Source of the DNA: Nitrospira sp. KM1
GTDB taxonomy: Bacteria > Nitrospirota > Nitrospiria > Nitrospirales > Nitrospiraceae
Assembly (NCBI RefSeq): GCF_011405515.1
Contig: NZ_AP022671.1
Location: 3,410,001 to 3,474,000 of the forward strand
Direction of reading: 5' to 3'
Length of the DNA: 64,000 nt
A model generated the notes under the pieces. It saw only the letters and a list, made by a program, of their open reading frames with translations. It was not told the DNA's origin and searched no databases. Position 1 is the first letter of the stretch, and each line of letters begins with the position of its first letter. A program made the position numbers and the translations under genes. Shown here one piece after another: positions 15,536-19,160 of this stretch.

Positions 15536-16012
15536 ATGAAAGCAAAGGAAGGTGTTATCAACCTGCTGAACAAGATCCTGACGGCCGACCTCACAGCGAT
15601 CAATCAATATTTTGTTCATGCAAAAATGTGCGAGAATTGGGGCTATGAACGCCTCCACCACAAGGTACGTGAGCGAAGCATCGATGAAATGAAGGACGCT
15701 GACGAATTGATCGGCCACATCCTGTATCTCGAAGGTGTGCCGAATGTCCAGCGGATGAATACCGTTCATGTAGGCGAAACAGTTCCGGAACAACTCAAAT
15801 TGGACTTGAAAGCCGAGCAAGAGATGCTCAGCGTGCTCAGCGAAGGAGTGGTTCATTGCACCAAAGTGTCGGATTTCACGACTCGCCATATGTTGGAAGA
15901 TATGGCGAAAGACGTGGATGCGCACATCGATTGGATCGAAACACAAATGGAGACGATCAAACAGATCGGATTGGAGAATTATCTCGCTGAGCAGATCAAG
16001 AAAGAGTCTTGA
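15536..16012 (+). CDS. bfr: Bacterioferritin with altered ferroxidase centre
   Basis: 158 residues, aligning without gaps to E. coli Bfr by eye (INQYF at 22-26, SIDEMK at 48-53, HIDWIET at 130-136, QNYL-like LENYLAEQI end). The haem ligand Met52 is present. Of the six ferroxidase ligands, Glu51, Glu94 and His130 remain, but Glu18 is Asp, His54 is Asp and Glu127 is Val. The protein should still build a haem-binding 24-mer; di-iron oxidation is doubtful unless a second subunit supplies it. Ribosome site AAAGGGGGA six bases before the ATG. Single gene with its own promoter; convergent with the CbiX-like gene. Confidence 0.93.
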   Translation: MKAKEGVINLLNKILTADLTAINQYFVHAKMCENWGYERLHHKVRERSIDEMKDADELIGHILYLEGVPNVQRMNTVHVGETVPEQLKLDLKAEQEMLSVLSEGVVHCTKVSDFTTRHMLEDMAKDVDAHIDWIETQMETIKQIGLENYLAEQIKKES

Positions 16013-16158: not shown

Positions 16159-17841
16159 TTATTTGGTATTAGGTGAGCGGCCGCTGGCAGACTTTAATAT
16201 GTCTGCACTGATACGCGCTACCTCCCGCTCCAACCATTCAGTCAACAGAGGGTCAAGGAGCCCCTTGTCGTTCATCTCGTACGCTAGTCCCTCGAACATG
16301 CGCCTGTACGGTCCCGCCCCATACAAGCGGTTGGCAATGACGATGACCCTTCCTTGTTTCCCAGCTTCCTCGATGGCGGTCCGTGCTTCGGCAACGGCCT
16401 TGTCGCGCTTCTCGGGCCAATCTTCACGCACAGTCAGTGCCTTGATGGATTTGAGCTGTGCGCAGTGAGGATCCTGACGGAGTCGGGCAATGTGCTGGTC
16501 CATCAGGTCTAGCCACTTGGTATTTCCCTCGTCCGTCGATTCTCCATGTGCCACCAAGAAGACGGATTCGTTCGCGGGTTGTCGACTCAACTCCAAGATG
16601 CGTTTGTGGTGGATGCTTGCCATGGCCGGGTCATGCTCATATCCGCCAACTGATGAGAACAACGCACTAGTACGAATCTGGATCGGTGCGGGAGCATGGG
16701 TGCCGTGATCGCCGTCATGTCTCATGGCGGGAGGTTGATCGATCAATCCGATGACATAGTCCGTGACCGGTTTGACCTGATGATCTAGCGCGTACATCCG
16801 AACAAAGATGATGCGTCGGATCCCACGTTCCTCCAGCCGGGAAACCGCACTTTGGATAATCAGTGGATCGCCCATGCCATAAGCCATTTCGACCGGATAG
16901 GATGCCGTCAAAGGACGAATGACGTTCTCGACGGCATCGTTATATGGTTGGCTCGCTCCATGAGGCATGACGATCACCCCGATATCGGATGCAGTGACCG
17001 GTGTATACCGATTCGCGGTCTTCCGGAGCCAGAGAAGCACGTTCGGGTGGGGCAGAAGCTCATCCGGCTGATAGACAATTTGCGTCTGTTTGAATTGCCT
17101 GGTGAACCAAGCCGTGAGCGACATGGTGTGGTCGTATTTCGAACCGATGAACGCGGGGACGAGTAGCGTACGTCCGTCCTTGGGGGCCTGGTTCAGCAAA
17201 CGGGCCTTGGCAGCCTGATTCTTTTGTTCGGCATGCTCAGCGGCGCGATCGTAGTACACCACGGCCTCGGTTTCTCGGAAGGGCTTGTATCGTTCGATAT
17301 AGCGGAGCAATCGATCGATATCTCCTTTTAGGTTTGACTCGCTCTGCTCGTCGGTCGCACCAACGCCCACGAGTATCAAGCGTTCGGATTCGGGGTGTTG
17401 ACTGAGTGTCTCGACCCGGTCCAGCACGATCTGCCGGATCAGGTGGTCATGGGCCATCGTACTGGCCCATTGCACAGGAAGGTCTCCCGTGTATCGGCCG
17501 AGGTCCGGAACAACACGTCGGAGTAGCGGATCAGCATCCGATAGGAATAGAGGGATGGCCACAATCTCTGCCACATGGAACTTTCGAAGCGCATCGATCG
17601 CGCGCGTCAGATAGACACCATATTCATCTAGCCCCCCTGCAGCGTCTCGTCCGACGAAAGCGAGTGCGGCAGGATACGACTTCCTGAAATCGTCGACAAG
17701 ACGCGTTACTTCCTGATTCCCCAGATAGCCTCGATCGGGTGCGACTACGAGAAATCCAATTCTCGGCTGGTCCGCCAATGTAAGCTGAACACTGCAAAGG
17801 AGAAAAACCGCCACCATGCTCACCATAATTCGCGCCAGCAT
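16159..17841 (-). CDS. Exported protein with CbiX-like (sirohydrochlorin chelatase-type) modules
   Basis: About 560 residues. The ATG at 17841 follows AAAGGAACAAC and opens a signal peptide (MLARIMVSMVAVFLLCS...LAD). Three chelatase-like modules can be seen: residues about 26-215 (IGFLVVAPDRG, LRKFHVAEIVAIPLFLSD), about 285-370 (VIVMPHGASQPYNDA, then RLEERGIRRIIFVRMYAL) and about 425-525 (VFLVAHGES). The catalytic HG pair is kept in modules two and three but not in the first. A His-rich linker (HDGDHGTH) lies near residue 378. Chelatases of this fold are normally cytoplasmic; an exported triple version is unusual. Metal or tetrapyrrole handling is an inference. Downstream of an AraC gene, same strand. 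Confidence 0.7.
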   Translation of the reverse strand: MLARIMVSMVAVFLLCSVQLTLADQPRIGFLVVAPDRGYLGNQEVTRLVDDFRKSYPAALAFVGRDAAGGLDEYGVYLTRAIDALRKFHVAEIVAIPLFLSDADPLLRRVVPDLGRYTGDLPVQWASTMAHDHLIRQIVLDRVETLSQHPESERLILVGVGATDEQSESNLKGDIDRLLRYIERYKPFRETEAVVYYDRAAEHAEQKNQAAKARLLNQAPKDGRTLLVPAFIGSKYDHTMSLTAWFTRQFKQTQIVYQPDELLPHPNVLLWLRKTANRYTPVTASDIGVIVMPHGASQPYNDAVENVIRPLTASYPVEMAYGMGDPLIIQSAVSRLEERGIRRIIFVRMYALDHQVKPVTDYVIGLIDQPPAMRHDGDHGTHAPAPIQIRTSALFSSVGGYEHDPAMASIHHKRILELSRQPANESVFLVAHGESTDEGNTKWLDLMDQHIARLRQDPHCAQLKSIKALTVREDWPEKRDKAVAEARTAIEEAGKQGRVIVIANRLYGAGPYRRMFEGLAYEMNDKGLLDPLLTEWLEREVARISADILKSASGRSPNTK

Positions 17842-17904: not shown

Positions 17905-18444
17905 TCAAAGTTGGCCGGGTGTTTGAGCATAATGAATGCGCCGGTACATGCCGGGAGATTGACCGGTCAGCCGCTTAAAAAACCTGCTGAAGGCGAACTG
18001 ATCGCTATATCCGATGGCTTCGGCAATTTCCTCCAGGCCGTTCTGTGTTGTGGCCAACAGCGTGCGCGCCTTTTCCAGCCTACAAAGGGTGAGATATTCG
18101 GAGAACGGTCGCCCCATCGTGGCGCGAAACAATTCCGAGCAATATTTCTCCGAGTACCCGAGAAAGTACGCCATCGCTTTCAACGTCAGTCCTTTGTGGA
18201 GATTATCAGCCACGAACAAGCGGATTTCAGCAGTAAGAGTCCGATGATTCGTGGTGGCGATTCGGTTGGAAGAGACTGCATAGCGTAAATTACACAGGTC
18301 CTTAACGACTTCCAAGAGTTCCCGCTCGGATTGAGCACGCAGCAAGCGGTCCCCCCATTGCGGAGCCTGCCTACGTAGGTCCTTGGCAAGGTTGAATAAG
18401 CGGGGTGATGCAAACATCGGCGAGCGTTTGTGCTTCAGGGGCAT
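17905..18444 (-). CDS. AraC family transcriptional regulator
   Basis: About 179 residues. The C-terminal ~95 residues form the double helix-turn-helix: LTLKAMAYFLGYSEKYCSELF, GRPFSEYLTLCRLEKARTLL, then IAEAIGYSDQFAFSRFFKRLTGQSPGMYRR. The N-terminal ~80 residues are short and charged, with no cupin sensor domain. ATG at 18444 has GGAAGGAG upstream. It lies 63 bases before the CbiX-like gene on the same strand and may control it (inference). A hairpin-plus-T-tract sits directly in its leader. Confidence 0.88.
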   Translation of the reverse strand: MPLKHKRSPMFASPRLFNLAKDLRRQAPQWGDRLLRAQSERELLEVVKDLCNLRYAVSSNRIATTNHRTLTAEIRLFVADNLHKGLTLKAMAYFLGYSEKYCSELFRATMGRPFSEYLTLCRLEKARTLLATTQNGLEEIAEAIGYSDQFAFSRFFKRLTGQSPGMYRRIHYAQTPGQL

Positions 18445-18468
18445 GAGAATCTCCTTCCTCTTGCAATC

Positions 18469-18506
18469 AAAAAAAGAGCCCATGGTTCAGTTGCACCATG
18501 GGCTCT
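18469..18506 (-). terminator. Intrinsic terminator upstream of araC-like gene
   Basis: On the minus strand, AGAGCCCATGGT and ACCATGGGCTCT form a perfect 12-bp stem with an 8-base loop, followed at once by seven Ts (A-run at 18469-18475 on the plus strand). It ends the transcript of the decayed gene at 18646-19160, or acts as an attenuator in the AraC gene's leader, whose start codon lies 25 bases further. No known riboswitch consensus was recognised in 18507-18645. Confidence 0.85.
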
Positions 18507-18645: not shown

Positions 18646-19160
18646 TTACTGATAGTCCTCGTTCAATGAATTAACAAACGCGACCATTGCAGCAGTATCT
18701 GCCGGAAGCAGAGCGATATCTTGGAGTTGGATTGCGCCATGGGCAGTGCACCCGCTCTGGCTTGGTTGGACGTTCCGCGATAAAAGCCGAGAATATCTTC
18801 TATGGTATCGAACTGCCCCGTATGCATGTACGGAGCGGAATGCCCGAGGTCCCGAAGGCCGGGGGTCTTGAATCGGGCAATTGCGCGATCGAGCAGCACG
18901 ACATCAGATAACGGACAAGGGACGACGTCATCACACAGAATGGCTTGAATCTTTGTTTGAGGCGCCGGCATGTCAGGGTTTTCAAATATGTTTCACACGC
19001 CAAATCGGTCAACTGGGTCCCCGCAGTGGGAATGGACCGGAAGCGATCACTGACTCCGGGATGTGCTTCGGTTGGCGGCAGATCGTTGGGTGTTCGAATG
19101 TCAATGTGCCCCACTACGACCGGATATTGCGTCCCACCGGGCCATAGTGGATGAGTGCGT
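18646..19160 (-). pseudogene. Di-heme cytochrome c peroxidase/MauG-like remnant
   Basis: The middle frame reads FKTPGLRDLGHSAPYMHTGQ and FDTIEDILGFYRG, the conserved C-terminal haem-ligand region of the di-haem peroxidase family. The preceding sequence (IPTAGTQLTDLACETYLKTL) is in a different frame, and the expected C-terminus (LQDIALLPADTAAMVAFVNS, ending at the TAA 18646-18648) is in a third. At least two single-base frameshifts, near 18972 and near 18740, are needed to join them. The N-terminal haem domain is absent. This is decay rather than a working gene, unless the assembly is wrong. Confidence 0.75.

Follow-up and report, generated by a model that had tools for sequence, protein, structure and literature searches.

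CbiX4, an exported double class II chelatase-like protein with a candidate role in TonB-dependent haem iron acquisition in Nitrospirota

A gene within a 64,000-nucleotide stretch of the Nitrospira sp. KM1 genome (contig NZ_AP022671.1, positions 3,410,001 to 3,474,000; the window) encodes a protein, named CbiX4 here, that is almost certainly an exported class II chelatase-like double protein. The reading favoured here, at a probability of roughly one half, is that CbiX4 acts in the periplasm as part of a TonB-dependent system by which Nitrospirota acquire iron from haem (metallo-tetrapyrroles). The two parts of this reading differ in strength: participation in TonB-dependent iron acquisition is highly probable, while haem or a tetrapyrrole as the ligand, which we infer, stands at about even odds. 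The combination of an exported chelatase fold and, in relatives, an operon that also encodes a haem-receptor-like outer-membrane protein suggests that CbiX4 probably helps the cell, outside its cytoplasm, to obtain iron from haem or related compounds. To our knowledge, few proteins are known for releasing iron from haem-like compounds in that location, and no published description of CbiX4 or its operon was found in the literature searched.

The CbiX4 gene is an intact open reading frame of 560 codons, with an AAAGGA ribosome-binding sequence just upstream of its ATG at 17841. The N terminus, MLARIMVSMVAVFLLCSVQLTLA followed by D, was judged by eye to be a type I-like cleavable signal peptide; comparable leaders were seen in all 22 aligned family members, also by eye, and no lipobox was present in CbiX4 or in the aligned leaders inspected. 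At the level of sequence, CbiX4 missed the gathering cut-off of the Pfam CbiX family PF01903 (18.9 bits, cut-off 22), although residues 288–348 matched the CfbA model NF033198 (E = 2e-4) and a relationship was detected with CbiX2, a second exported CbiX protein of the operon described below (E = 2e-12). A search of the PDB with the single CbiX4 sequence as query returned no match. The chelatase link is thus weak from the CbiX4 sequence alone, and becomes solid because of the kinship to CbiX2 and the predicted fold.

An AlphaFold2 model of CbiX4 was built with 22 natural sequences (pLDDT 87.7, pTM 0.86) and compared with solved structures. The top match was SirB (Z = 20.6 over residues 27–283), and further matches were found to ferrochelatases (Z 17–18), to the periplasmic CbiK of Desulfovibrio (PDB 2xvz; Z = 16.4 over residues 283–549) and to Porphyromonas FetB (Z 16.2). 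The SirB, ferrochelatase and CbiK matches identify the bilobal class II chelatase fold, which CbiX4, like periplasmic CbiK, combines with a signal peptide. Ordinarily this fold serves to load metals into haem-like rings. The two halves of the protein align to each other by profile with a probability of 99.0, and residues 26–284 and 285–550 each form a complete bilobal unit, giving four lobes in two units (A and B; Table 1). A reading of this DNA made from the sequence alone had described an exported protein with three CbiX-like modules and had pointed to structural comparison with CbiX and CbiK. A conserved predicted signal sequence and a predicted class II chelatase fold bear out that description, but three modules are replaced by two bilobal units. 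Neither result that had been named as refuting the description, an unlike fold or a non-functional signal, was encountered.

Table 1. Positions in the window of CbiX4, its parts and its immediate neighbours.
Feature	Position	Strand	Evidence
CbiX4 (560 aa), exported, with class II chelatase-like units in tandem	16159..17841	-	ORF, translation, AlphaFold2, fold matches, conservation
Predicted signal peptide (~ residues 1–23)	17773..17841	-	Hydrophobic leader, T-L-A before mature part; in 22/22 aligned members
Unit A, bilobal, without His-Gly (residues 26–284; invariant D36-R37-G38 and H265)	16990..17766	-	SirB match, conservation
Unit B, bilobal, His-Gly in both lobes (residues 285–550)	16192..16989	-	CbiK match, profile match to unit A
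Codon of H294, in the first His-Gly of unit B; aligns with catalytic H9 of CfbA	16960..16962	-	Alignment; invariant in 32 rows
Codon of H432, in the second His-Gly of unit B	16546..16548	-	Invariant in 32 rows
His-rich linker (~ residues 368–387)	16681..16740	-	Sequence; not conserved outside Nitrospiraceae-type members
AraC-family regulator, ~ 63 bp upstream of the CbiX4 gene, same strand	17905..18483	-	PF12833, 79.4 bits; heads operon in relatives
Bacterioferritin/ferritin-like gene, convergent neighbour	15536..16012	+	PF00210, 113.6 bits

Conservation was assessed over 32 rows, comprising the window CbiX4 and 31 relatives. The two unit B histidines, whose conservation had been named as a check on the second and third modules, proved invariant in every row, as did H265 of unit A. 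The His-Gly absent from the supposed first module is indeed absent, and from both lobes of unit A, where an invariant DRGxxGN loop stands in place. Neither member of the catalytic pair of CfbA (H9 and H75) is present in unit A, which is on these residues predicted to be catalytically dead. Unit B retains the first (H294) and lacks the second; at the second position there is no conserved histidine, and a mostly conserved lysine, K357, lies at or beside it in the profile alignment. With respect to the His/Glu/His metal triad of CbiK, H432 falls at the second-lobe His-Gly, the partner residues being placeable only with coordinates. The His-rich linker of the sequence-only reading is real but not general: it is found mainly in Nitrospiraceae members and is weak or absent in deep members, which points to an accessory feature.

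At many Nitrospira loci the family is encoded in an operon in the order AraC regulator, membrane-fusion protein, ABC ATPase, two FtsX permeases, TonB, CbiX4, TonB-dependent receptor, exported CbiX2 and PepSY membrane protein, often with bacterioferritin and topA genes facing it. An AraC regulator belonging to the window gene had been proposed from the sequence, and the neighbouring AraC gene proved real. A ferritin-type gene also adjoins the family at L019, L020, L027, L029, L034, L037, L039, L094 and L101 and on a plasmid. Nearly all contexts share TonB-dependent import, often together with PepSY proteins and ferritins. The operon permeases matched LolE, YtrF and MacB among solved structures; the haem exporter HrtB was not among the matches listed for them, and haem efflux is therefore not supported by sequence. 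Fur regulation was considered and rejected: scanned with a simple consensus, the regions preceding the operons yielded no matches beyond those in shuffled sequences; there was a single match at L087, and marginal matches lay close to the L021 and L022 receptors. Between the AraC and Fur genes of the window (18663–19114, minus strand), short overlapping open reading frames (SAPYMHTGQFDTIEDILGFYR) resemble by eye the C terminus of a di-haem cytochrome c peroxidase; they match no Pfam family and may represent a decayed gene.

The operon partner CbiX2 passes the PF01903 threshold (52.6 bits), and both catalytic histidines of CfbA are invariant in all 10 CbiX2 sequences (H40 and H110). Its AlphaFold2 model was poor (pLDDT 62.6). 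Retention of both histidines makes CbiX2 the better candidate for catalysis, judged by sequence, and the doubled CbiX4 may bind, present or scaffold. Beyond CbiX2, the KM1 genome holds one other PF01903 match, a 178-residue open frame that is presumably a cytoplasmic enzyme. No match to haem oxygenase, HemS, CobN-type chelatase/HmuS (PF02514) or ferrochelatase HemH was found in this genome. A genome of the same genus encodes a CbiX-like protein of one unit (L084:9363–10331, minus strand), which has a His-rich stretch of its own and a lipobox-like leader (VAGCAQ) and passed PF01903 at 25.1 bits; its gene lies beside a Cus-like metal efflux system.

Receptor type was assigned by scanning 24 loci against NCBIfam. 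The TonB-hemin model or its sister haemoglobin model was the best match at 18 of them (L014, L016, L018, L019, L021, L022, L023, L025, L026, L028, L029, L031, L034, L036, L037, L094, L101 and the operon of the KM1 genome itself), the best match being nearly tied with another model at L031, and L026 having a second, siderophore/FecA-like receptor upstream. Siderophore-type receptors were found at five loci (L039, L082, L086, L087 and the plasmid locus L102), while the L038 receptor had no match at the threshold used. The curated TonB-hemin cut-off of 316.85 bits was exceeded at L021, L022 and L023, and several operon receptors scored far below it (137–155 bits). Within the KM1 genome the operon receptor ranked first for TonB-hemin, at 305.7 bits, followed by 152 and then 77 bits among 65 match pieces. 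Most of these pieces fall in a dense run of TonB-dependent receptors outside the window, mostly on one strand (G000:C1:3818000–3953500). The L021 and L022 receptors contain FRQP, SGTH and NPDL, which we take to resemble the FRAP/His/NPNL pattern of haem receptors.

The association with strong haem-type receptors was itself strong only within the same family and order. Among genomes of the same family or order with a strong TonB-hemin match, 10 of 12 carried CbiX4, within 5 kb of the receptor in nine of the ten and on a different contig in the tenth. Across the phylum the association was moderate (10 shared genomes against ~ 3 expected), and haem receptors occur elsewhere in the phylum without CbiX4. 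The suggestion of a periplasmic metal or tetrapyrrole system, made from the letters of the window, is well supported by the predicted fold, the conserved signal and, in relatives, a TonB-dependent uptake operon with mostly haem-type receptors.

Under the favoured haem acquisition reading, a TonB-hemin-type outer-membrane receptor, powered by the operon's own TonB, would import haem, and a cleft between lobes of CbiX4 would receive the tetrapyrrole. Unit A might bind or scaffold, and the one histidine per lobe of unit B could ligate metal. The periplasm would be the place of iron removal, for which CbiX2 with its two catalytic histidines is the most plausible site, the PepSY membrane protein possibly giving reductant, before passing to inner-membrane uptake and bacterioferritin. 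The MacB/Lol-like exporter could clear porphyrin or another product, and the window copy would work in trans, alongside the ~ 3.98 Mb operon. A more specific form of this scheme is put forward tentatively, as the less probable side of the argument: a class II chelatase-based, oxygenase-independent periplasmic haem de-chelation in Nitrospirota, evolved independently of HmuS, in which a doubled, partly dead chelatase would hand haem to the intact CbiX2, with electrons from PepSY and removal of porphyrin by the MacB/Lol-like exporter.

The main evidence against a role in haem use only is a subclade (L082, L086, L087 and L039) whose members, like the plasmid copy, lie near siderophore-type receptors. 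Sigma/FecR genes and genes for PepSY and ZIP-like proteins are also found close to the copies at L082, L086 and L087. This subclade makes a general iron-chaperone role a real rival, in which CbiX4 would take metal from varied TonB-imported complexes, including siderophores, without acting on tetrapyrroles and with its fold used like a periplasmic binding protein. The siderophore-leaning receptor on a Manganitrophus plasmid, the degenerate CbiX4 active sites, the His-rich linker and the repeated ferritin neighbours are all in keeping with such a chaperone. However, haem-type receptors accompany both the largest clade and the deep L021–L023 clade, the co-operonic CbiX2 has the intact His pair of a tetrapyrrole chelatase, and the subclade receptors, 1.4–8 kb distant, may be chance neighbours, given how many TonB-dependent receptors these genomes encode. 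On balance a chaperone of this kind is considered a serious but rather unlikely alternative.

It is less likely still that CbiX4 is a periplasmic metal-inserting chelatase, loading a tetrapyrrole with Co, Ni, Fe or Mn in the manner of periplasmic CbiK or of the metal exchange proposed for FetB. The fold match to periplasmic CbiK and the CfbA and CbiX sequence matches would suit this role, and FetB has been reported to put manganese into protoporphyrin (PMC13402209); CbiX4, however, is without the second catalytic histidine. A cobalamin link was rejected, since no cobalamin riboswitch was found in the loci tested and the receptors scored lower with the B12-receptor model than with TonB-hemin.

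The CbiX4 family or fragments of it were detected by profile search in 30 of 396 Nitrospirota genomes, some weak rows being CbiX2 or decayed copies, and its distribution across the phylum is patchy. Eighteen CbiX4 loci were taken from GTDB contigs, several of them from the same genomes. Copies annotated as hypothetical protein are also present on three plasmid records of the manganese oxidiser Candidatus Manganitrophus; on plasmids CP114554.1 and CP114559.1 (L102 and L103) the copy is accompanied by a TonB-dependent receptor, a PepSY protein and a ferritin. Decayed remnants were seen in four genomes (G155, G065, G303 and G357), the operon is partly duplicated at L025 and G139 has three CbiX4 copies, which together suggest repeated gain and loss.

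Beyond the reach of the sequence-only reading was the fact that the window copy is solitary, with a full operon elsewhere in the genome. This second operon (G000:C1, ~ 3.971–3.988 Mb) has the gene order of the Nitrospira relatives and encodes a CbiX4 paralogue 61 percent identical to the window copy. Its PepSY gene is followed by a tRNA and then by integrase-like and phage-like genes (L033:4244–16000; G000:C1, ~ 3.988–4.000 Mb), and an element may thus have integrated beside the operon. In the window, the AraC–CbiX4 pair faces bacterioferritin and topA, in the site and orientation that operons of relatives often have, without the transporter genes and with no receptor gene beside it. The branch of the window copy is long (0.49; the median is 0.11), but this copy retains 59 of the 60 residues that are invariant across the 31 other rows, so it is constrained and not decaying: a solitary, faster-evolving but constrained paralogue. 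That it is instead an operon leftover heading for loss, with no role of its own, is improbable: the long branch, a topA–bacterioferritin site and orientation identical to those of the full operons at L034, L037, L094 and L101, and the remnants in other genomes would fit, but the reading frame is intact with signal peptide and ribosome-binding site, 59 of the 60 invariant residues are kept, and at this site L039, too, is without exporter genes. Because of this similar short form at L039, which may be of long standing, the window was not taken to be just a remnant left by deletion.

Only recently has an enzyme been shown directly to free haem iron while keeping the ring intact: HmuS of gut Bacteroidota, described in 2025 (PMC12583661). 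Should the CbiX4 operon do likewise with ferrochelatase-type proteins, nitrifiers and manganese oxidisers would have a second solution, unrelated to HmuS, and environmental nitrite oxidisers might be drawing iron from haem or another metallo-tetrapyrrole. CbiX4, doubled and in part inactivated, also raises the testable question of how a chelatase fold turns into a binding protein.

Among known systems, FetB/IhtB of the Porphyromonas gingivalis Iht system (PDB 9b86) is exported, is encoded with a TonB-dependent receptor and is thought to strip iron from haem (PMC10913741). CbiX4 resembles it as an exported class II chelatase-like protein, with the fold match given above and a receptor co-encoded in the operon-type relatives and with the KM1 paralogue, though not with the window copy. 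FetB/IhtB, however, has one unit, is a lipoprotein of the cell surface and is accompanied by genes for an ABC importer, whereas CbiX4 has two tandem units and a type I signal peptide, no lipoprotein signal, and belongs, in a different phylum, to an operon with a MacB/Lol-like exporter, a PepSY partner and a second exported CbiX. CbiK, a periplasmic cobaltochelatase from Desulfovibrio vulgaris (PDB 2xvx, 2xvz), is likewise an exported class II chelatase and matches unit B, but is a single-unit cobalt enzyme, in contrast to a doubled protein with degenerate active sites and a TonB operon. The sirohydrochlorin chelatases SirB and CbiX (PDB 5zt7, 6jv6) share the fold and weak sequence matches, yet are cytoplasmic with an intact His pair, whereas CbiX4 is exported, doubled and degenerate in its active site. 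HmuS, which is encoded in a haem operon with a TonB receptor and takes iron from intact haem without an oxygenase (PMC12583661), belongs to class I (CobN-type), is large and bound to the membrane, and has no sequence kinship to CbiX4; the haem-type TonB receptor in the operon of CbiX4 relatives recalls it, and any likeness of mechanism would be by convergence.
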